In this document: positions 1 through 57,726 of the stretch, piece by piece | How positions within the stretch are numbered: position 1 is the first letter of the stretch | How the letters are laid out: the number at the start of each line of letters is the position of its first letter | Assembly: GCA_947490345.1 (NCBI GenBank) | Contig: CANLGL010000008.1 | Coordinates: forward strand, 1 to 64,000 | Length of the DNA: 64,000 nucleotides | Origin: Deltaproteobacteria bacterium | GTDB lineage: Bacteria; Myxococcota_A; UBA796; SXON01 | Direction of reading: 5' to 3' | Notes under the pieces: generated by a model | The model's input: the letters and a program-made list of their open reading frames with translations, nothing else | The model's database searches: none | Told to the model about the DNA's origin: nothing | Translations under genes and position numbers: made by a program

Positions 1-2412
1 AGCCTGTCCCAGTGCTGGTGCTCCACCACCGGCAGTTACGACGTCACCAACGACGACGACTGCGACGACAGCGACGCCACCACCTTCCCAGGCGTCGCCG
101 AGGAAGACAGCACCACCGCTTGCATGACCGACGCCGACGGTGACGGCTTTGGCGACACCACCGCCCCCTCGGGTGGCACGGCCGGAACGGACTGTGACGA
201 CGCTCGCTCCGGGGTCAGCCCGGACGGCACCGAGACCTGTGGCACCTCGTACGACGACAACTGCGACAGCTCCACCAACGACGTCGGCGCGCTCGGCTGC
301 ACCACCTACTACTACGACGGCGACAACGACACCTACGGCAAGTTGTCACTCACCCAGTGCACCTGCACCACCTCGGGCAGCTACGACGTGACCAACAGCA
401 CCGATTGCGACGACAGTGACGCCGACACCTTCCCTGGCGCCGCCAGCGTCGAGTCGGCCACTTCCTGTCGCAACGACGACGACAACGACGGGTACGGCGA
501 CACCACGGTGAGCACTGGCGTCACCGCTGGCACCGACTGCGACGACACCCGCAGCGCGGTAAACACCGCCGCGACCGAGACCTGCTCCACGACATACGAC
601 GACGACTGCGACAGCTCCACCAACGACGTCGGCGCCACCGGCTGTACGACCTACTACTACGACGGCGACAACGACGGTTACGCGATCACCACGTCGTCAC
701 AGTGCACATGCACGTCCAGCGGCAGCTACGACATCACCGGCACCACCTCCGCGAACGACGACTGCGACGACACCGACGACGACATCAGCCCGGGCGATCC
801 CGAGCTGTGTACGACCACGGCTGACGATGACTGCGATGGCAGCACCAACGATGTCGGTGCGACCGGGTGCACGACCTACTACTACGACGGCGACGCCGAT
901 GGCTACGGCATCACGACGTCGTCGCAGTGCACGTGCACGGGCTCCGGCCTGTACACCGTCACCGGGGTGACCACCGCCAACGACGACTGCGATGACACCC
1001 TCTCTGGGGTGAGTCCGGGCGATTCCGAGGTGTGCACGACCAGCTACGACGACGATTGCGACGGGTCCAGCAACGAAGTCGGCGCCTCCGACTGCACCAC
1101 CTACTACTACGACGCCGACAGCGACGGATACGGCCTCCTCACCACAACCCAGTGCGCCTGCGCCACGAGCGGCTTCTACACGGTGACCGGCACCACCTCC
1201 GCCAACGACGACTGCGACGACACGCGCGCCACGGTCAGCCCAGCCGATCTGGAGGTCTGCACCACCACGTACGATGATGATTGCGACGGCTCGAGCAACG
1301 AGGTCGGCGCGTCGGACTGCACGGCCTACTATTACGACGGCGACAGCGACGGCTACGGGCTGCTGGCCACGACCCAGTGCGCGTGCGCTACCAGCGGCTA
1401 CTACACCGTCACCGGGGTCACCGCGGCCAACGACGACTGCGACGACACCCGGGCCGCAGTCAGTCCGGCCGATCTGGAGGTCTGCTCCACGACCTACGAC
1501 GACGACTGCGACGGCTCCAGCAACGAGGCCGGCGCCTCGGACTGCACCACTTACTACTACGACGGCGACAACGACACCTACGGCGATCCGAGCTTGTCCA
1601 CGTGTACCTGCACCACCAGCGGCAGCTACGACACCACCGACAACACCGACTGTAACGACGCGGTTGCGACCACCTACCCGGGGGCGGCCGACACGTTCGC
1701 CACAAACGACGGCGTGGACAACGATTGTGACGACTTCATCGATGAAACGGGCGTGGCGTACGGGGACATCGTCATCACCGAGTTCTTCGGGGGTAACAAC
1801 ACCGAGACCTACGACTGGGTGGAGATCTACAACAACTCCGGCGACACCATCTCGCTCGCCAACTGGACCATGGAGCTGTGCGCCGATTCGGCCGCTACGG
1901 TCTCGGCGCCCTACGTCGAGGCCAACTGTCCGGCGTGGGTCACGGTCACCTTCCCGAGCTCGGCCACGGTGCCCGACAACAGCTACTTTGTCGTCTGTGG
2001 CGCGTCTGCCAGCTTCACCACGACCGCGGATTGCGACGTGGTGATCACCGCCTACGACTCGCCGGCCTACACCACTTCGACGGATATCAACAACCCGGTC
2101 GGTGGGGTGATGGTCGACCTTGACGGGACGCTCATCGACTCGGTCTTCTACTGGCAGGTGTCGGGAAGCACCGACTGGCCCGCAGATGCCAGCACGGCGG
2201 TCACCGCGCAGCTCACCTCGATCCAACTCGATCTGGACACCATCAACGCGGTGAGCCCGGATCCGGCCGACGCGAATGACGACTTCGAGACGTCGTCGAG
2301 CACCCCCGACGACACCTGGTGCACGGCGGAGGACGCCGGCGTCACCAACGACTGGGCCACCCTGTACACCATCGTCGGCAGTCCGGGCGCCGACAACGTC
2401 GTCTGCCCGTAA
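1..2412 (+). CDS. MopE-repeat surface protein with C-terminal lamin-tail domain (5' end missing)
   Basis: The frame is open from the first base, so the gene starts before the window; the first in-frame ATG at 124 lies inside a repeat and is not a convincing start. About 560 residues are Asp/Cys/Thr-rich repeats of the putative metal-binding MopE type, with DGDNDGYG-like and DDCDDT segments, C-T-T-T/S-Y-D-D-D-C-D-G/S cores and regularly spaced cysteines. They are followed at roughly residues 580-800 by a lamin-tail-like beta-sandwich, recognisable from GDIVITEF and YDWVEIYN motifs. Such proteins are secreted and presumably bind Ca2+ or other metals at the surface. The next gene starts 12 bp downstream and also carries MopE repeats, followed by a cytochrome c and a multicopper oxidase, which suggests a shared surface role. 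The family call is good; the metal is unknown. Confidence 0.85.
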   Translation, partial: SLSQCWCSTTGSYDVTNDDDCDDSDATTFPGVAEEDSTTACMTDADGDGFGDTTAPSGGTAGTDCDDARSGVSPDGTETCGTSYDDNCDSSTNDVGALGCTTYYYDGDNDTYGKLSLTQCTCTTSGSYDVTNSTDCDDSDADTFPGAASVESATSCRNDDDNDGYGDTTVSTGVTAGTDCDDTRSAVNTAATETCSTTYDDDCDSSTNDVGATGCTTYYYDGDNDGYAITTSSQCTCTSSGSYDITGTTSANDDCDDTDDDISPGDPELCTTTADDDCDGSTNDVGATGCTTYYYDGDADGYGITTSSQCTCTGSGLYTVTGVTTANDDCDDTLSGVSPGDSEVCTTSYDDDCDGSSNEVGASDCTTYYYDADSDGYGLLTTTQCACATSGFYTVTGTTSANDDCDDTRATVSPADLEVCTTTYDDDCDGSSNEVGASDCTAYYYDGDSDGYGLLATTQCACATSGYYTVTGVTAANDDCDDTRAAVSPADLEVCSTTYDDDCDGSSNEAGASDCTTYYYDGDNDTYGDPSLSTCTCTTSGSYDTTDNTDCNDAVATTYPGAADTFATNDGVDNDCDDFIDETGVAYGDIVITEFFGGNNTETYDWVEIYNNSGDTISLANWTMELCADSAATVSAPYVEANCPAWVTVTFPSSATVPDNSYFVVCGASASFTTTADCDVVITAYDSPAYTTSTDINNPVGGVMVDLDGTLIDSVFYWQVSGSTDWPADASTAVTAQLTSIQLDLDTINAVSPDPADANDDFETSSSTPDDTWCTAEDAGVTNDWATLYTIVGSPGADNVVCP
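646..1545 (+). repeat. Four in-frame 225-bp tandem repeats
   Basis: The codons for the TTYYYD segment recur at 646, 871, 1096, 1321 and 1546, exactly 225 bp (75 codons) apart. This gives four complete units and the start of a fifth. Each unit encodes a Y-Y-Y-D-x-D-x-D-G-Y segment, a Q-C-x-C segment, a D-D-C-D-D-T segment and a D-D-D-C-D core. The unit before 646 is longer (about 345 bp from 301) and diverged. The constant period suggests recent unit duplication under selection for the reading frame. Confidence 0.85.
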
Positions 2413-2424
2413 TAGCTGGATCGG

Positions 2425-5043
2425 ATGCGGCTGTTTTTTCCTCTTCTGCTTGTCGGTTGCGGCTCCTCCTGGCTTGCCCAGGATCTCGATGGTGACGGTT
2501 GGACCGCGGCCGATGGCGATTGTTTCGACAACCCCGACCAGGACGCCAACGGCATCGCGGCCGCCGACATCCATCCGGGCGCCTCCAACGAGACCTGGTA
2601 CGACGGCGTCGATCAGAACTGCGATGGCGCCAACGACTACGACAAGGACGCCGACGGGCACCCCGCGGCCGAGTTCGACGGTGGCGACGATTGCTGGGAC
2701 GATCCGGACGGCGCACCCGCGGCGTTCCTCGCCCTGAGCGGCTTCTACCAACCGCTGGCCCGCGAGGTGCATCCGGGCGCCGAGGAGACCTGGTACGACG
2801 GCGTCGATGAAAACTGCGACACCGGCTCGGATTTCGACCAGGATGGTGACAGGGTCGACACGCTGTGGCACGAGCAGAGCGGCGGCGTCGTCGGAGAGGA
2901 CTGCTTCGACGCTGAGGCGGATCCATTCGAAAACCCGGCGTTGGCGGAGCCGGAGAACGTAAACCCCGATGCGGTGGAGACCTGGTACGACGGCACCGAC
3001 GCCAACTGTGACGGGGCCGACGACTACGACCAGGACGCCGACGGCTGGGTGGTCGACGAGGAGTGCGACGACCTGGACCCGGAGATCTACCCCAACGATG
3101 CCGCCGAAACCTGGTACGACGGGATCGACAGCAACTGCGATGGCCACAGCGACTTCGACCAGGACGACGACGGGTACGACTCCGCCGACTACGACGGCGA
3201 CGACTGCAACGACGACCCGGCCGCCCCCGCTTCCGGCCGGGATGGCGCGAGTGTCGACGCGGAGGACATGCACCCCAACGCAGGGGACACGCCCTACGAC
3301 GAGATCGACGCCGACTGCGCGGGCGACAGCGACTTCGACGCCGATGGCGACGGACAGGACGCGGATGACGTCGCCGGTGAGTCTGGGCTCTTCGGCACTG
3401 ATTGCGATGATGACGATGGCACGGTGTACACCGGCGCCGCTGAGCTCTGGTACGACGCAGTGGACGCGGACTGCTCGGGTGGCAGCGACTTCGACCAGGA
3501 TGGGGACGGTTTCGACTCCTCGTCGTACGGCTACGGCACCTCGGACGACTGCGACGATGCCAGCGCCGCGGTGCACCCGAGCACCGGCGCCGACCCGGTC
3601 GACGAGGACTGCTCGACCGTGGCCGACGATGACTGCACCGGCACCGACAACGACGAGGACGCGGCGGGCTGCGTCGCCCACTTCCTCGATGGGGACGCCG
3701 ATGGCTACGGCAAGCTGGCGGATTCTGGTTGTTTCTGCGAGGAGTCGGGCTCCTACACGGTGACGGGGGTCACCGCCGCCAACGATGACTGCAACGACGC
3801 CAAGTCCACGGTGAATCCGGGCATCACCGTCGAGGACTGCGACACCGCTGACGACGATGATTGCGACGGCGACACCAACGAGCTGGGCGGTGACAACTGC
3901 GAAGATTGGTACGGTGATGCCGATGCGGACGGCTACGGCGTCGGCCCCGGAGCCTGCTACTGCTCCGCCACCAGCGCCTTCTCCTCCTCGTTCGACGACG
4001 ACTGTGACGACGCTGACGACACGGTCCATCCCGGCGCGGCCGAGACATGCGACCTCGCTGACGAAGACTGTGACGGCGCCGTCGACGAAGGGGTCACCCA
4101 CTACTACACCGATACCGACGGCGACCTCTACGGGGATGACGCTACCGAGACCTGCTCCTCCGGCGGCGGGCGCGTCGCGACAGGCGGCGACTGTGATGAT
4201 GGCGATGAGCGCGTGTTCCCCACCGCGCCGGAGCTCTGCGACGAACAGCAGAACGACTGCGACGCGGCGACCTGGAGTACCACCGACGAGGATGGGACCG
4301 CGTCCTACGCGACGACCGCCGACGTCTGGACCAGCGTTACGACGGCTTGGGCGGCCGGTACCAGCTCGACGGTCGCTTCGATCTCGCTTGCGTCGACCGG
4401 CAGCTACCACGTGTGCCCAGGGACCTGGTACGTGTCACTCGTTGCGGCGGGTGGCGATGACGTGGACGTCCTCGCGCCCTACGGGGCCGCCGACACCACC
4501 CTGGACCGCGCCGGAACCCTGGGCCCGCTTCTGTCGGTGACCGACAGCTCGGTTTCGATGGAGGGCCTCACGCTGACCGGGGGTACCGGTCAGCTGGGCG
4601 GTGCCGCGCGATACGGCGGTGCCGTCCTCTCGTACGCGACCACGTCGACGGCGGTCGCCAGCGTGGTGTTGATCGACTGCGAAGTGACCGGAAACACCGC
4701 GACCTATGGCGGGGGCCTCGCCGCCTACAACTATGGAGACATCACGCTGACCAGCACCGAGGTGTACGACAACACCGCCACCAACGGCGGGGGTCTCTTC
4801 ACCCAGCGCGGCGACATCGTGGCCACCGGCGGGGGCGTCCACGACAACACTTCCACAGGCGAGGGCGGCGGCGCCTACTTCTCGACGAACCAGGGTTCGC
4901 TGACGGTGACTGGCGGGGACTGGTCCGCCAACAGCGTTGATGACGCGGCGGGTGCCAGCGGTGGATTCGGCACCGAGCCCGATGCGTCGTACGGCAGCTC
5001 GGCCGACTTCTCCTGCGCCGGGAACACCGGGTGCACGCCGTAG
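2425..5043 (+). CDS. MopE-repeat lipoprotein with C-terminal beta-helix
   Basis: A short lipoprotein signal (MRLFFPLLLVGC, lipobox LVGC) gives a clear ATG start 12 bp after the previous stop. Residues about 20-650 consist of MopE-like repeats of variable length: ETWYDGVDxNCDG cores, DFDQDGDG calcium-loop-like segments and DCDD blocks. The last 200 residues change to a Gly/Asn/Thr-rich right-handed beta-helix with GGGLxxY and VYDNTATNGGG turns, like polymorphic outer-membrane proteins. The mature protein would be lipid-anchored and exported, with a Ca2+- or metal-binding Asp-rich stalk. Its last codons overlap the start of the cytochrome gene, so the two are probably co-translated. It is related to the first gene but has the lipobox and beta-helix instead of a lamin tail. 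Confidence 0.85.
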   Translation: MRLFFPLLLVGCGSSWLAQDLDGDGWTAADGDCFDNPDQDANGIAAADIHPGASNETWYDGVDQNCDGANDYDKDADGHPAAEFDGGDDCWDDPDGAPAAFLALSGFYQPLAREVHPGAEETWYDGVDENCDTGSDFDQDGDRVDTLWHEQSGGVVGEDCFDAEADPFENPALAEPENVNPDAVETWYDGTDANCDGADDYDQDADGWVVDEECDDLDPEIYPNDAAETWYDGIDSNCDGHSDFDQDDDGYDSADYDGDDCNDDPAAPASGRDGASVDAEDMHPNAGDTPYDEIDADCAGDSDFDADGDGQDADDVAGESGLFGTDCDDDDGTVYTGAAELWYDAVDADCSGGSDFDQDGDGFDSSSYGYGTSDDCDDASAAVHPSTGADPVDEDCSTVADDDCTGTDNDEDAAGCVAHFLDGDADGYGKLADSGCFCEESGSYTVTGVTAANDDCNDAKSTVNPGITVEDCDTADDDDCDGDTNELGGDNCEDWYGDADADGYGVGPGACYCSATSAFSSSFDDDCDDADDTVHPGAAETCDLADEDCDGAVDEGVTHYYTDTDGDLYGDDATETCSSGGGRVATGGDCDDGDERVFPTAPELCDEQQNDCDAATWSTTDEDGTASYATTADVWTSVTTAWAAGTSSTVASISLASTGSYHVCPGTWYVSLVAAGGDDVDVLAPYGAADTTLDRAGTLGPLLSVTDSSVSMEGLTLTGGTGQLGGAARYGGAVLSYATTSTAVASVVLIDCEVTGNTATYGGGLAAYNYGDITLTSTEVYDNTATNGGGLFTQRGDIVATGGGVHDNTSTGEGGGAYFSTNQGSLTVTGGDWSANSVDDAAGASGGFGTEPDASYGSSADFSCAGNTGCTP

Positions 5044-7049
5044 TCTTGGTGCTGGCCCTGGCCTGCGAGACGGCGGTGCCGCCCTCGCAGGACTCCGGGG
5101 AAACGAGAGCCGCCGACACCTACCACAGCGGTCTGAGCGCCCCGGCCAATGTGCGCGTCACGGTGACCCTCGACGGGGCGCCGATCGCCGGCGCTCTGGT
5201 GGTCCAGGCCGGGACCGAGACTCGCTACGAGACCGACGTCAGCGGGGTCGCAGAGGTACCGATCGATGCAACGATCGAGGGTGATCTCTGGCTGGCCGCC
5301 AGTTTTCCGACGGCCTGGAACGCGGGTGCGATCGTGGATGGAGGCTCGTCGGTGACCATCGAACTCTCGAGCTTCGACCCGACGGACAATCCGGACTACG
5401 CGTTCGCGGACCCGGGGATTGACGCCACCGCGGACTCCAACGCCACCCAGTGCAGCCATTGTCACCTGTCGATTCATCGCGGCTGGTCGGCGAGCCCCCA
5501 TGCGGCTTCGGCGCGCAACCCGGTGGTGCAGGCGGTGTACCAGGGCTTCGATCGGAACGTCCACGATCGAGTCGCGTGCGAAGCGCGGGGCGGAACCTGG
5601 TCGTCCGCGGTCGAGCCTGGGTCCTCCGTAACGATCGAGGCGTGCCACGTCGCGAGTGCGGTGACCGGCGGTGGGGGGTGCGCCGACTGCCACGCGCCCG
5701 GTATCGGCGGCGCCGATCTGGCGGGGCACGACCTGCTGGAAGCGACCGGGCTCGCGTACGAAAACGGTGTGCACTGCGATGTTTGCCACAAGATCGAGTC
5801 GGTCGACGTTGGCGCGGCCGCGGGCGTGGCGGGTTGGCTCAACGTCATGCGGCCGACCGACCCCTCGCCGTCGCGGCTCCTCGGGCCCTATCATCCGCTG
5901 CAATTCGGTCCCTACATCGATGTGCTCAACCCGCTGATGGGGGGTGTGCTGCGCGAGCATCTGCATGAGGCCGACTTCTGCGGCGGCTGCCATCAGCTCG
6001 ATCAGGGCGTGCTCGCCGAGGGTGCCGAGCTCGATCGGTTACGATGGCCGGAGGGCACGCTCCCCGTTCAGAGCACGTGGGCCGAGTGGACGGAAGGTCC
6101 GATGAATCCGGCTGCGCCCTGTCAGAGCTGTCACATGCCTCCGCTCCCGGCTGTGGGCAACTCCGCCGATCTCGGCAACGAGTTCGACCTGGTTCCCGGC
6201 GTCGCCACCGGCTGGTATCGGTCACCCGGTGCGGTTCGGGCCCACTCCTGGGTGGGGCCGCGCCAACCAGCCAGCGGAATGCTCGAGCTGGCGGCGTTGG
6301 TCGACGTCGAAACCGAGCTCAGCGGCGGGGAGCTGGCGGTGACCGTCACGGTCCAGAATTCAGGCCCCGGACACGCGCTGCCCACCGGCGAGCCCCTCCG
6401 TAATCTGGTCCTTCGGGTGGAGGCGGCTTGCGATGGGACACCGCTGGTCGCGACGGGCGGCGACGTGGTGCCGGTGTGGGGCGGGACGGACGGCGTGCTC
6501 ACGTTGCCCGCCGATCTGCTGGTCGTGGCCGGCGCTGCGCCAGGCGACCGACTGCGCCTGCTCCGGAACGAAGGTTGGGTGGACTACCGAGGTTTCGGTG
6601 CGTTCGGGGACGGTCGGTTCTCGGCGGCAGAGAAGGGGCTGCCGGACTACGCGCTCATCGGGGACGCCGAAGTGATGGCGGTTGATCCCGAGGGGCGCGT
6701 CACGCTCGACCATCCGGAGTGGGCGGCGGTCGCGGATACCGCCTTCTGGGTGCGGGACACCAGCGTTTCGGAGGTGGGGGCGGTGGGTGGTCTTCCGGGC
6801 TTCGGCTTTGCCCGAGTTCTCGTCGGCGACGATGGGGAGCGCATGGTGCCCCACCACTTGGCCGTGGACGTCGAGAGCGACAATCGCCTGCTGCCGACGG
6901 AGTCATTCACCACCGAGCACCTGTTCGCGTCGGACTGCGCGTCGCCCGTCGTCACCGCTACGCTGCGGTACAGGTCGGTTCCGTGGGGCCAGGCCCAGCG
7001 CTACGGGTGGGTGGTCGACGACCGGGTGATGGCGACGGTGACGCGGTGA
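5031..7049 (+). CDS. Pentahaem c-type cytochrome lipoprotein
   Basis: The GTG start at 5031 lies 13 bp inside the upstream gene and gives a compact lipoprotein signal, MHAVVLVLALAC (lipobox LALAC). Five CxxCH haem-attachment motifs are visible: CSHCH near residue 141, CADCH near 217, CDVCH near 249, CGGCH near 317 and CQSCH near 364. Extra His residues (HLSIH, SPHA, HLHE) could be distal ligands. The W-x-x-S-x-H-A pattern after the first motif resembles the cytochrome c554/multihaem electron-transfer family. Residues about 410-670 form a haem-free beta-rich domain with a PGHALPTGE motif. The product is expected on the outer face of a membrane, relaying electrons. It overlaps the multicopper oxidase gene by 4 bp (GTGA). 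The partner and direction of electron flow are unknown. Confidence 0.85.
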   Translation: MHAVVLVLALACETAVPPSQDSGETRAADTYHSGLSAPANVRVTVTLDGAPIAGALVVQAGTETRYETDVSGVAEVPIDATIEGDLWLAASFPTAWNAGAIVDGGSSVTIELSSFDPTDNPDYAFADPGIDATADSNATQCSHCHLSIHRGWSASPHAASARNPVVQAVYQGFDRNVHDRVACEARGGTWSSAVEPGSSVTIEACHVASAVTGGGGCADCHAPGIGGADLAGHDLLEATGLAYENGVHCDVCHKIESVDVGAAAGVAGWLNVMRPTDPSPSRLLGPYHPLQFGPYIDVLNPLMGGVLREHLHEADFCGGCHQLDQGVLAEGAELDRLRWPEGTLPVQSTWAEWTEGPMNPAAPCQSCHMPPLPAVGNSADLGNEFDLVPGVATGWYRSPGAVRAHSWVGPRQPASGMLELAALVDVETELSGGELAVTVTVQNSGPGHALPTGEPLRNLVLRVEAACDGTPLVATGGDVVPVWGGTDGVLTLPADLLVVAGAAPGDRLRLLRNEGWVDYRGFGAFGDGRFSAAEKGLPDYALIGDAEVMAVDPEGRVTLDHPEWAAVADTAFWVRDTSVSEVGAVGGLPGFGFARVLVGDDGERMVPHHLAVDVESDNRLLPTESFTTEHLFASDCASPVVTATLRYRSVPWGQAQRYGWVVDDRVMATVTR

Positions 7050-8407
7050 TCAGCGTGCTGCTGGGTTGCGTGGAGCTGGACGACAGCGTCGACAGCGAGT
7101 CGTTGCCGACGGACTCCGCCGCCGACATCGCCGAGCCCGGTCCGCCGGCCATGCCGTTCCCGCCCGACGCGGTGGACCTCGACGGCACTGCGGGGCACGT
7201 GCGGTTCGCGCTGTCCGCGCTACCGGCGACGCACGACGTCGGCGGCGCCAAGATCGCGGGGTACGGATACGACGGCGTGGCTCCGGGCCCGGTGCTCCGG
7301 GCCCAGGTGGGCGACGAGGTCACGGTTGAGTTCCACAACGGCCTCGACTCCCCGACGACTCTGCACTGGCACGGGATGAGCGTGCCCAACGAGATGGACG
7401 GCGTGGAGCACGTGCAGACGCCGATCCCCCCAGGGGCCGGCTTCACCTACACCTACACGGCGACGAGCTCCGGCACCTTTTGGATGCACCCTCACGTCGA
7501 CACGGACCGCCAGGTCGACCTCGGTCTGTACGCTGCTATCGTAGTGACAGAGCCTGCCGAACCCGTTGCCGATCAGGACATCGTCCTGGTTTTCGATGCC
7601 TGGGCGGAGGCCGAGTCGGGCCTGGGCGCCACCGACGATCACACGCCGCCCGACCCGCGGACCCAGGTGTGGACCGTCAACGGCGCGGTGGGCCCGATCT
7701 GGACGCTGCAGCCGGCGCAGACCGTGCGGGCCCGCCTGCTCAATGCGTCGAACACCAGCTACCTGTCGCTGAGCTGGCCGGGTGCACGGCTTTTGGCCTC
7801 CGACCAGGGACTCGCTGCGTCGTCTTCCGACGTGGAGGGGCTCGTGCTCGCGCCAGGGGATCGCGCCGAGGTGGAGGTGCTGGCAGGGGGAGGGACTGTT
7901 GAGGTGACCACCGCGATGTGGTCGCCCGCCGGCGGCGCCAGCTTCGGAGATCCCCGCAGCCTTTTCTCCGTCGTGGGCGGCGACGCCGAGCCGGGGCTGC
8001 CGCTCTCGTTCGCGTTTTCGGGGGCGGTGCCGTCGATCGATCCTGGTCGCACGGATCTGCTGTACACCCTCCAGGGCGGCGCGCCTGACGAGGACTGGCT
8101 CATCAACGGGGAGGCCTGGCCCGACGTGACCGTGGGGCACGTCGCGCTCGATGCCGACGTGATCATCGAGGTCCGCAATCTCAGCGCGACCAGCCATCCC
8201 TTCCATCTGCATGGCCACCCGTTCGAGGTGCTGTCGGTCGCGGGTGTCGCCCCCGCGGTGCGCCGCTACGAGGACACCCTCGACGTGCCGATCCGGGCGG
8301 CGGTGCGGCTTCGGCTCACGGCGGACAACCCAGGCGCCTGGCTGATTCACTGTCATCTGCTCGGACACGAGGAGGGTGGCATGATGACCGAGTTGGTGGT
8401 GGAGTAG
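7046..8407 (+). CDS. Multicopper oxidase lipoprotein
   Basis: The frame is open further upstream, but the GTG at 7046 overlaps the cytochrome stop (GTGA) and gives a minimal lipoprotein signal, MISVLLGC. The 453-residue product has all four copper-ligand motifs of multicopper oxidases: HWHG near residue 107, HPH near 148, HPFHLHGH near 384 and HCHLLGH...GM near 435. The Met after the last His cluster is the usual type 1 axial ligand. The family oxidises metals, phenols or cuprous ion and reduces O2 to water. Being lipid-anchored and translationally coupled to a multihaem cytochrome, it may exchange electrons with it (inference). No Met-rich CueO-type insert was seen. The substrate is not predictable. 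Confidence 0.88.
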   Translation: MISVLLGCVELDDSVDSESLPTDSAADIAEPGPPAMPFPPDAVDLDGTAGHVRFALSALPATHDVGGAKIAGYGYDGVAPGPVLRAQVGDEVTVEFHNGLDSPTTLHWHGMSVPNEMDGVEHVQTPIPPGAGFTYTYTATSSGTFWMHPHVDTDRQVDLGLYAAIVVTEPAEPVADQDIVLVFDAWAEAESGLGATDDHTPPDPRTQVWTVNGAVGPIWTLQPAQTVRARLLNASNTSYLSLSWPGARLLASDQGLAASSSDVEGLVLAPGDRAEVEVLAGGGTVEVTTAMWSPAGGASFGDPRSLFSVVGGDAEPGLPLSFAFSGAVPSIDPGRTDLLYTLQGGAPDEDWLINGEAWPDVTVGHVALDADVIIEVRNLSATSHPFHLHGHPFEVLSVAGVAPAVRRYEDTLDVPIRAAVRLRLTADNPGAWLIHCHLLGHEEGGMMTELVVE

Positions 8408-8440
8408 GCGGAGTCGTCCCAAGCGTGGCATGCTGGCGCT

Positions 8441-10537
8441 GTGGCCGAATGCGAGGAAATTACCGGCTCTGGGTGCGGGCTGTTGGTGTCTCCGCCCGAT
8501 GTCTCGTGCGAGGACGGCGCGGGAGTCAGCGACACCAGCGATGACACCGGCTCCGTGCGCCTACACGGGAGCGGCTGTGGGGCCCGGGGCGAAGCCCCTC
8601 CGGAGTGCGCGGTCGCAGCGGGGCCGGGCTGGGCCTCCGTGCTGCTGCTGCTTTGGTTGTGGGCGCGCCGTGTAGCCTTGTGTTTCGTGGCCGGGGTTCT
8701 CCCCTTCTCGGCCCGCGCGGACGGTCTCAACGCCGAACAGCTCGCGCCAGGCGATGGTGGCCCCTCCCTGGCCATCTACGAGGCTGACCTCGGCGAGCGA
8801 GGTTCGCTCAACGCTGGATTCACCTGGAGCTTTGCGCGCCGGCCGGTGGTGGCGCGATTCAAGGAAGGAACCAACCGGGTGCTGCTGGACGGCGTGGGCA
8901 GCGGGACGCTCGGTGTCTCCGCCCGCGTCTTGGAGGGACCGCGGATCGGCATGGCCCTGCGGTACATGCAGTGGAGCTTTGTCGATCGCGTCGAGGGGGG
9001 CTTCGGGGACACGATGCTCTGGGCGACGGTTCCAGTGCTTGAGTCGCGCGGCACCGGGTTCTTTGCCGCAGTGACCGTCGATCTCGTGCTGCCGACGGGG
9101 CCTTCGGATGTTTACCTGGAGGACGAGGCGGGCGCGCTCGACGGGCTGGCGTCAGGGCGGTGGAGTCGCGACAGTTTTGCTGCGGACGTCCAGTTGGGAG
9201 TGCGGCTACAGCGTGACCAGGTCATCAACAACGTCGTCTGGGGCCCGCGGTATCGGTGGGCGGTGGCGTTGAGCGCGCGCCCATGGGGGTGGGGACTGGT
9301 CACGGCCGAAGCGTTTGGCAGCGGAGCGTTGGCCGCCGTACCCGACGCCGAGGCGGTGACCCCGATCGAGGCCAACGCCTACGCCGGCGTGTGTTTTTTT
9401 GGAGCGCTCTGCGTCCGTGGTGGGCTGGGTTCCGGGCTCACCTACGGAGTCGGCGCGCCGGACTTTCGCGCCACGGCGGCGGTCGACTGGCGTCGGCCAC
9501 CCCGGACCGACGCCGATGGGGACGGGATCATCGACCTGAAGGACCGCTGCATGTGGGTCCCCGAAGACATGGACCTCGTCGCGGACGAGGACGGCTGCCC
9601 GGAGGCAGACGGAGACGGCGACGGGTTCGAGGACGCGGACGACCGCTGCCCGCTGATCGCGGAGACCGTGAATCAACTCCGGGATGACGACGGGTGCCCC
9701 GATCGCATCGCCACGCTCACGCTGCTCGTCACCGGAGTCGCCGATCTCGATGCCGAAACGGCCCTGGTCGATGGGCTGACGCCCACGGAGACCACCGTCT
9801 TCTTCGACGAGCCCACCGTGCTCAGGGTGGAGGACGGCTTTCATCGATACACGGTGGAGGCGGACGGGTACGCGGTCTGGCATGGCGCGGTCGATGTCTC
9901 TGGGCGGGACCCTTTGGCGCGTGTCGAGTTGGTCCCGATCCGCTACGGGAGGGTGCGCTTGCGCTTGGTGGACCCCGCCGCGGTCCCGCTGAGCGGGTTC
10001 GTACGGCGGCCCGACGCGGAAGGCGGGGCGGGCCCGGCCGAGGCGGTGCCCGCGGTTGGCATCGAGCTCAGGACGACCATCGGCCCGAGCTCCTGGGCGG
10101 TTCATGTTCCCGGCTACTCCGGCCGCAAGGTCGCCTTCGAGGTCCGCCGCGACGAGCTCCTGGAGGTGCTGCTGACGCTGGCCCCGGTCGATCTCCGGCT
10201 GGAAGGCGACCGCATCATCACGACGCGGGAGATCGCGTTCGATCTGGACCGGGCGGTCCTCCGCGCCGACGGCCAGCCGGTGCTCGAAGACATCGCCTCG
10301 CTTCTGGCCGCGCGCCCCGACATCGAGTTGCTCCGCATCGAGGGTCACGCTGACGAGTCGGGCACCAGTCGGCACAACCTCGACCTGAGCCGAGATCGGG
10401 CAGAGGCCGTACGTGACGCGCTGGTGGCTCGGGGTGTGGTCGCGACGCGGCTTGAGGCCATCGGGAGCGGCGAGGCGCGCCAACGGGACGACACCCGCAC
10501 CGTCGGCTTCACCGTGCTGGTCTGGTCCGACCAGTAA
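8441..10537 (+). CDS. OmpA-like outer-membrane protein with calcium-binding TSP3 repeats
   Basis: The C-terminal about 110 residues are an OmpA/MotB peptidoglycan-binding domain (IAFDLDRAVL, IEGHADESG, LSRDRAEAV). Before it are thrombospondin type 3-like calcium loops (DADGDGIIDLKDRC, DGDGDGFEDADDRC) and a 300-residue region likely to form a beta-barrel. It would tie the outer membrane to peptidoglycan. The start is ambiguous. The longest frame begins at GTG 8441, but its first 70 residues are Cys-rich and end in a hydrophobic, Arg-terminated stretch like a sorting tail. A normal signal peptide, M(L)WARRVALCFVAGVLPFSARA, would start at TTG 8657. Residues 1-72 may thus be the remnant of another protein. 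It follows the multicopper oxidase by 33 bp. Confidence 0.8.
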   Translation: MAECEEITGSGCGLLVSPPDVSCEDGAGVSDTSDDTGSVRLHGSGCGARGEAPPECAVAAGPGWASVLLLLWLWARRVALCFVAGVLPFSARADGLNAEQLAPGDGGPSLAIYEADLGERGSLNAGFTWSFARRPVVARFKEGTNRVLLDGVGSGTLGVSARVLEGPRIGMALRYMQWSFVDRVEGGFGDTMLWATVPVLESRGTGFFAAVTVDLVLPTGPSDVYLEDEAGALDGLASGRWSRDSFAADVQLGVRLQRDQVINNVVWGPRYRWAVALSARPWGWGLVTAEAFGSGALAAVPDAEAVTPIEANAYAGVCFFGALCVRGGLGSGLTYGVGAPDFRATAAVDWRRPPRTDADGDGIIDLKDRCMWVPEDMDLVADEDGCPEADGDGDGFEDADDRCPLIAETVNQLRDDDGCPDRIATLTLLVTGVADLDAETALVDGLTPTETTVFFDEPTVLRVEDGFHRYTVEADGYAVWHGAVDVSGRDPLARVELVPIRYGRVRLRLVDPAAVPLSGFVRRPDAEGGAGPAEAVPAVGIELRTTIGPSSWAVHVPGYSGRKVAFEVRRDELLEVLLTLAPVDLRLEGDRIITTREIAFDLDRAVLRADGQPVLEDIASLLAARPDIELLRIEGHADESGTSRHNLDLSRDRAEAVRDALVARGVVATRLEAIGSGEARQRDDTRTVGFTVLVWSDQ

Positions 10538-10543
10538 CGCAGG

Positions 10544-56538: not shown

Positions 56539-57726
56539 ATGCTCTCCGCACTCTTGCTGATCGCCTGCGTCGAGCCGACACCAACTTCGCTAGACAGCGG
56601 GGCGCCGAGCGCCGACGATGGTGATCCCGTCGTCCTCGACGACGTGCTCGGCGCCCTCCGCGCCGATCCGACGGCGGCCATGCTCGACCGTTCGCGCGCG
56701 AACGGCTGGCCCGCGCCGGTAGAGGGCGGCTGGCTGTTCGTTCACGCGATGGGCCCCAACTTCGAGCTCGCCGGAGAGCACTCGGAGTGGGCACCGGAGG
56801 CCATGAACCAGGAGGCTGGGTTCGCCTGGCTGGTGCGCGCCGGCGACTCGGGCGGCGGGTACAAGTTCACCGACGGCGACGAGTGGATCGCGGATCCGTG
56901 GGCGCGGGCCTACGGCTACGACGAGTTCGGTGAGCTCAGCGTCATCCCTGGTGCGCCCGGGGCTCACCTGGAGCGCCAGTTCGAGGTGCAAGGCCAGGGC
57001 CTGGAGGCGCGGACGTTGCGCCTTTGGGTTCCCGACGGCGAGCACACGCACACCCTGTACATGATGGACGGTCAGAACCTGTTCGATCCTGCGGCCCCCC
57101 ACGGCGGTTGGCAACTCCAGGACGCTATCCCTGCCGGAGTGCTCGTGGTCGGGATCGACAACACTGGCGCGCGGATGGAGGAGTACACCCCGGTCGAGGA
57201 CGTGATCTCGGGCGAGCGCTACGGCGGGGCCGGCGCGGCCTATGGCACCTTCGTTCAACAAGACATTCGGCCTTTGATCAATGGGATCTACGGCGCCGAG
57301 GGCCGAGTGGGCCTCCTCGGCAGCTCCCTGGGCGGGCTCATCAGCTACGCCATCGCCGCTCAATACCCGGACGAATACGCCTTTTCCGGGTCGATGTCGG
57401 GCACGATGGGCTGGGGTTCGATCGGGGCCAGCAACCCGACGATGATCGACGTGTACGCGGCGATGGCGCACCGGAGCACCGCGTTGTTTCTCGATTCGGG
57501 CGGCGAGGGCAGTTGCGCGGACACCGACGGCGACGGCATCGAGGACGACGCGCCCGATGGCGCCGACAACTACTGCGAGAACCTTCAGCTGCGCGATGTC
57601 CTCGCTGGCGCCGGGTTCCGCTACGACGTGGACCTCTGGCATTGGTGGGAGCCGGGGGCCGAGCACAACGAAGCGGCCTGGGCCGACCGCGTGCATCGCC
57701 CGCTCAGCATCTTCGCCGCTTTGTAG
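56539..57726 (+). CDS. Secreted esterase (enterochelin esterase-like alpha/beta hydrolase)
   Basis: The lipoprotein signal is MLSALLLIAC. Residues about 60-140 form an N-terminal CBM48/Ig-like domain (WLVRAGDSGGGYKFTDGDEW). The C-terminal half is an esterase D-type alpha/beta hydrolase: TLYMMDGQNLFDPAAPHGGW, then the nucleophile elbow GLLGSSLGGLISY (GxSxG near residue 258) and a late His in WWEPGAEHNEAAW. The Asp of the triad may lie near LFLDSGGEGSC. Relatives hydrolyse enterochelin, feruloyl or acetyl esters. A DTDGDGIEDDAPDG loop near 330 looks calcium-binding. The 98-bp gap upstream is GC-rich without an obvious promoter. Confidence 0.83.
   Translation: MLSALLLIACVEPTPTSLDSGAPSADDGDPVVLDDVLGALRADPTAAMLDRSRANGWPAPVEGGWLFVHAMGPNFELAGEHSEWAPEAMNQEAGFAWLVRAGDSGGGYKFTDGDEWIADPWARAYGYDEFGELSVIPGAPGAHLERQFEVQGQGLEARTLRLWVPDGEHTHTLYMMDGQNLFDPAAPHGGWQLQDAIPAGVLVVGIDNTGARMEEYTPVEDVISGERYGGAGAAYGTFVQQDIRPLINGIYGAEGRVGLLGSSLGGLISYAIAAQYPDEYAFSGSMSGTMGWGSIGASNPTMIDVYAAMAHRSTALFLDSGGEGSCADTDGDGIEDDAPDGADNYCENLQLRDVLAGAGFRYDVDLWHWWEPGAEHNEAAWADRVHRPLSIFAAL

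Follow-up and report, generated by a model that had tools for sequence, protein, structure and literature searches.

The locus at the start of the window (the whole stretch of DNA analysed, 64,000 nucleotides) has a conserved two-gene core, which encodes a pentahaem c-type cytochrome (CYT) and a laccase-like multicopper oxidase (MCO). The two proteins probably work together, since many relatives carry the pair, in some cases as one fused protein. An earlier note on this DNA had proposed that five genes form an exported, undescribed redox unit. That proposal holds for the CYT-MCO pair, which is conserved and probably exported, but not for the five genes as a unit.

The window covers bases 1-64000 of contig C8 (115,386 bases), in a genome of 5.5 Mb and 129 contigs. 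The five co-directional frames of the earlier note, with overlaps or gaps of at most 33 bp and a GTGA between cytochrome and oxidase, are all present on the + strand (Table 1). The spacing is +12 bases for MopE1/MopE2, -13 for MopE2/CYT, -4 (GTGA) for CYT/MCO and +33 for MCO/OmpA, and third-position GC is 0.83-0.90 in each of the frames. Two MopE-type proteins, a five-haem cytochrome and a multicopper oxidase had been named there, and these identities are confirmed by eight PF11617 stretches in each MopE protein, five CxxCH motifs and three Cu-oxidase domains. The last gene had been called OmpA/TSP3; Pfam finds the OmpA domain, but TSP_3 stays under its cut-off. MopE1 is truncated at its 5' end because the first base of the window is also the first base of the contig. 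For CYT and MCO the start codon is uncertain, since further in-frame starts lie upstream. Rfam and tRNA scans gave no matches.

Table 1. Positions of the five genes, the gene overlap and the cofactor motifs; gene positions are bases of the window and motif positions are residues of the protein.
Feature	Position	Strand	Description
MopE1	1-2412	+	PF11617 repeats (8 stretches) and LTD domain (Pfam); 5' end cut at contig end
MopE2	2425-5043	+	Lipobox-like start, 8 PF11617 stretches (Pfam), conserved C-terminal domain; accessory
CYT, pentahaem c-type cytochrome	5031-7049	+	Five CxxCH; lipobox-like LALAC
CYT stop/MCO start overlap GTGA	7046-7049	+	Start codon at same position in 38/38 adjacent pairs
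MCO, three-domain laccase-like multicopper oxidase	7046-8407	+	Three Cu-oxidase domains (Pfam); lipobox-like LLGC
OmpA/TSP3 protein	8441-10537	+	OmpA (Pfam); TSP_3 below its cut-off
CYT haem motifs CxxCH	residues 141-145, 217-221, 249-253, 317-321, 364-368
MCO copper motifs	residues 107-110, 148-150, 384-390, 435-446

A search for CYT over 58 genomes, its own included, gave matches at E<=0.001 in 46, many of them weak. The best matches provide a first set of 35 distinct CYT loci, counting the window and L067 (an NCBI Myxococcota record). Three of these loci end within 240 bases past CYT. MCO is the next gene in 28 of the 32 others, each time with an in-frame start at a 4-base overlap, and the loci without an adjacent MCO are L046, L057, L059 and L067. 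The phylum is taken as Myxococcota on the strength of the earlier note and of record L067. When the CYT profile (A2) was run against 377 of its genomes, 80 matched at E<=1e-20; among 40 further stretches, chosen from the longer and stronger matches, an adjacent MCO is present in 10, again always with the 4-base overlap. A tree of 72 CYT rows divides into clade A (57 rows) and its sister clade B (15 rows), a split with SH-aLRT 100 in a quick search. L065 and L066 were dropped as repeats of L032 and L036, and L134-L136, which are distant and have no MCO, stand outside the tree. Clade A contains 38 paired rows, two fused rows, two with a doubtful C-terminal extension, eight without MCO and seven left uncounted because no more than 245 bases of contig follow CYT. 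MCO is carried by 40 of the 50 testable clade A loci. The other 10 have no recognisable adjacent MCO and neither does any of the 15 clade B loci (L119-L133); therefore, CYT can act alone. Scored on this tree as paired against everything else, the rows require 11 changes, where shuffled labels average 24; if the cut rows are omitted and the four fused-type rows scored as paired, six are enough. MCO has been lost or gained repeatedly on the CYT tree.

The overlap is ATGA in 30 of the 38 adjacent pairs, GTGA in seven and TTGA in one, and its constancy suggests translational coupling. A single -4 overlap is weak evidence, since a TGA stop after A, G or T makes a start codon whenever the frames fit. 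The 38 of 38 mean more than one would, although the loci are related and not independent. Four of the MCOs (L041, L099, L104 and L113) have no clear signal peptide directly after the -4 start. The pairwise distances of CYT and MCO in the 38 pairs correlate with r=0.78, a value reached in 0 of 2000 permutations, although common descent alone could give this. Clustering of the neighbouring genes, done with a crude gene caller that missed many MCOs, gave groups of 33 CYT, 22 MopE-type and 14 MCO members and no other group larger than eight; the smaller groups inspected are either flanking genes of the genus or shadows of MCO on the reverse strand. Outside the phylum, the search covered plasmids and one scan of genome contigs for short exact patterns, which gave 31 matches, three of them confirmed. 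A match on a Sulfurovum plasmid, with 24% identity and 49% coverage, is surrounded by nine annotated features, none of them an MCO.

In two loci, L108 (1159 aa) and L117 (1157 aa), a single open frame encodes both CYT and MCO, with complete copper motifs and without the inner signal peptide. Since the signal peptide of MCO is missing, these fusions are unlikely to be mere frameshifts. The MCO profile scores them at 601 and 585 bits, respectively, and L108 is also confirmed by Pfam. The fusion genomes belong to families f45 and f36, in which L099, L104 and L112 keep separate genes. In two more loci, L116 (oriented 4615-7968) and L118 (4593-7985), CYT has a C-terminal extension of ~330 residues. 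It is weakly similar to the third MCO domain, without the copper ligands (hhalign 66%), and is possibly a decayed fusion. This assignment was not adopted and both loci were scored as lacking MCO, because the MCO profile misses them at E<=1e-3 and hhalign gave only 66%, for the third domain.

The five CxxCH motifs of CYT are present in all 72 rows. Outside of these motifs, the alignment has invariant His157, His405 and His448, with His248 and His630 nearly so, and invariant Cys183 and Cys205, which may form a disulphide. The CYT of the window has no Pfam family above cut-off, the best being PF14522 at 19.5 of 24.8 bits; among 35 members searched at E<=0.01, PF14522 appears in 29 and PF22113 in 13. 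Profile A2 matches the pentahaem cytochrome c552 of PDB 5ze8 (E=1e-12). The match is made up of four collinear segments, and two of them reach E<=1 by themselves; with the single CYT sequence as query the match has E=2e-6. The aligned segments cover the C-terminal region as well as haem motifs 1, 2, 3 and 5, and leave out motif 4. CYT thus resembles cytochrome c552 at the level of sequence. An AlphaFold model made from four sequences has a mean pLDDT of 40 and is too poor for use.

MCO scores above the Pfam cut-offs of Cu-oxidase_3, Cu-oxidase and Cu-oxidase_2, and its best PDB relatives are 6vow, 9cpm, 6w2k and 2xu9. The ligands of the T1, T2 and T3 copper sites, axial Met included, are invariant in all 28 aligned MCOs. 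All 38 MCOs contain HWHG and HCHxxxHxxxxM, and 36 of them contain HPxHxHG in its strict form. A regular expression for the lipobox finds it in 34 of the 38, and some MCO starts yield signal peptides of just 6-8 residues. Very short lipoprotein-like signal peptides were also seen at window position 56539 (+), at 8596 of L037 and at 966 of L039, where only 8-9 residues precede the lipobox Cys even if translation is taken to begin at the first ATG, GTG, TTG or CTG in the frame. The genome has a second MCO (296 bits) on another contig, C11. Locus L053 contains two more MCO-like matches (~36% identity) at 7880-10539, downstream of its CYT-MCO pair.

The order of the five genes was sought in the relatives and did not recur. 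OmpA has no match in the 34 other first-set loci, some of which extend little beyond MCO, and MopE2 was seen in same-genus loci only. Of the 11 same-genus loci, 8 (the window, L032-L035 and L038-L040) have MopE2, as recognised by its non-repeat C-terminal domain, upstream of CYT. The exceptions are L036, which has just ~0.6 kb of upstream sequence, L042 and L057. No MopE2 C-terminal domain was found in the first-set loci outside the genus. MopE2 is a genus-level addition to the CYT-MCO pair, and it is doubtful that MopE1 belongs to the unit. In the closest relative (85% identity in CYT), MCO extends to 11887 and is followed from 11973 by a gene on the opposite strand; this leaves no space for OmpA, which is absent from the locus. 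Genomes G003, G005 and G006 have full-length relatives of the OmpA protein (50-52% identity) on contigs that do not carry CYT, and in G003 the search for CYT gave no match. With its absence from the closest relative and its orthologues on separate contigs, OmpA was rejected as a member of the unit. The five-gene operon was likewise rejected as a conserved unit, OmpA being local and MopE2 confined to the genus in the first set. The OmpA protein of the window begins with ~75 residues that contain Cys, a hydrophobic run and Arg ahead of a second hydrophobic stretch. A similar N-terminal stretch is found in the orthologues L139-L141 and L143, and we take it to resemble a MYXO-CTERM tail.

These results bear on the reading of the locus as a MopE-centred surface module of five genes for copper or another metal. 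The genes are co-directional with short gaps, and other loci of the genus share the order MopE2-CYT-MCO, but the distribution of OmpA and MopE2 speaks against it and the reading is very improbable. The MopE repeats had also been offered as evidence for copper, which they do not provide. Against the solved structures, MopE2 (the only MopE query) matches MopE* (2VOV) significantly only at residues 1-45, and the Cu(I) site of MopE, at positions 130-203, is outside of this match. The site consists of kynurenine-130 (Trp130), His132 and His203 according to an excerpt of PMC3423442. MopE motifs occur in at least ~70 open frames of the genome on many contigs; this minimum was counted by hand from 150 listed matches, for which 150 of the 712 candidates had been scored. 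A "copper module" is unsupported because the MopE match misses the copper site and the motifs are in so many frames. MopE2 could possibly have a role in calcium binding or adhesion. MopE1 and MopE2 are like the MopE of Methylococcus in their Asp/Cys-rich PF11617-type repeats. They are unlike that protein and its surface cytochrome c peroxidase in that the copper-site region is unmatched and the Pfam matches of CYT include no peroxidase family.

MCOs pass electrons from type 1 copper to O2. Since the genes overlap and are twice fused, CYT is best explained as the putative electron donor of MCO, and the two would form a redox unit outside the inner membrane in which CYT feeds MCO and MCO reduces O2. 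We give this proposal about an even chance. Both proteins would be lipid-anchored, probably at the outer membrane. The pentahaem CYT, of c552/PHC type, would gather electrons from an upstream donor for the type 1 copper of MCO, and MCO would reduce O2 to water at its trinuclear copper site. A stricter form of the proposal is more tentative, namely that the pair is a terminal oxidase in which a lipid-tethered, nanowire-related PHC directly feeds a laccase-like MCO, with reduction of O2 at the cell surface, the two forming one polypeptide in some lineages.

MCO may instead oxidise external Mn(II), Fe(II) or Cu(I), with CYT as an accessory or electron carrier; the arrangement would be comparable to the OmpB/MofA clusters, where the partner of the MCO is MofC, a protein with a cytochrome domain. 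Surface MCOs with cytochrome-domain neighbours have been proposed as metal oxidoreductases in an excerpt of PMC5566968, and the copper ligands of MCO are complete. This function is nevertheless unlikely: MCO scores far under the cut-offs of the CueO and CopA models, and the coupling and the double fusion to a pentahaem protein would be left unexplained. MCOs of the CueO kind carry a Met-rich insert, and the seven Met among the 453 residues of MCO indicate that it has none. CYT could also be an enzyme itself: a small compound of N, S or O would react at one five-coordinate haem, and MCO would protect CYT or remove O2 or a product. Related PHCs are classed as potentially catalytic, with a five-coordinate haem, in an excerpt of PMC11976967, and CYT is found without MCO in clade B; however, all of its haem motifs are CxxCH and the conserved His residues outside of them could be distal ligands. 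An enzymatic CYT is quite unlikely.

If the pair is such a terminal oxidase, these bacteria could discharge electrons to oxygen, or lower the local O2, outside the inner membrane and without proton pumping. The electron donors in most studies of MCOs are small molecules or metals; a conserved, gene-overlapping and at times fused partner would be a defined protein donor, and the CYT-MCO pair would make protein-fed extracytoplasmic O2 reduction directly testable. Extracellular electron transfer is known mostly from metal reducers, and the phylum taken as Myxococcota is best known for predation and secondary metabolism. The pair would, if the proposal is true, extend extracellular electron transfer to this phylum.

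MCO is like the CueO, CopA and Thermus laccase-type MCOs in having three cupredoxin domains and four copper motifs. It differs from CueO, CopA and laccases in falling under their curated NCBIfam cut-offs (151 of 525, 139.5 of 479 and 91.6 of 559 bits, respectively), in its lipobox and in being encoded behind CYT. The ncgABC-nirK genes of Nitrosomonas also encode an MCO together with c-type cytochromes, but these are mono- and dihaem cytochromes and are accompanied by a nitrite reductase. MofA and OmpB are much larger than the MCO described here. The OmpB/MofA-MofC clusters of Geobacter and Leptothrix are like the pair in that an extracytoplasmic MCO lies beside a protein with a c-type cytochrome domain, and some of these clusters have SCO1/SenC neighbours (PMC5566968, in part). 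The comparison of MCO with OmpB/MofA is one of gene neighbourhoods. MCO-cytochrome gene neighbourhoods are an already known kind, since excerpts of PMC5566968 describe them. The CYT-MCO pair was not described in the titles or abstract openings found by a literature search, mostly outside subscription journals, and what appears to be new is the pairing of a pentahaem cytochrome with an MCO. Excerpts of PMC11976967 group c552-like proteins with ExtKL and GSU2801 and report that a kinship to an archaeal cytochrome nanowire has been suggested. This PHC family (c552, ExtKL, GSU2801 and the PHCs of cable bacteria) shares five CxxCH motifs with CYT; the kinship of CYT to ExtKL and GSU2801 rests on the same source, which ties them to c552, and not on a sequence comparison here. 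The contexts described there for PHCs are the extI porin cluster of Geobacter or truncated haemoglobin domains, whereas CYT is a lipoprotein-like protein of 672 aa with an MCO as its partner.
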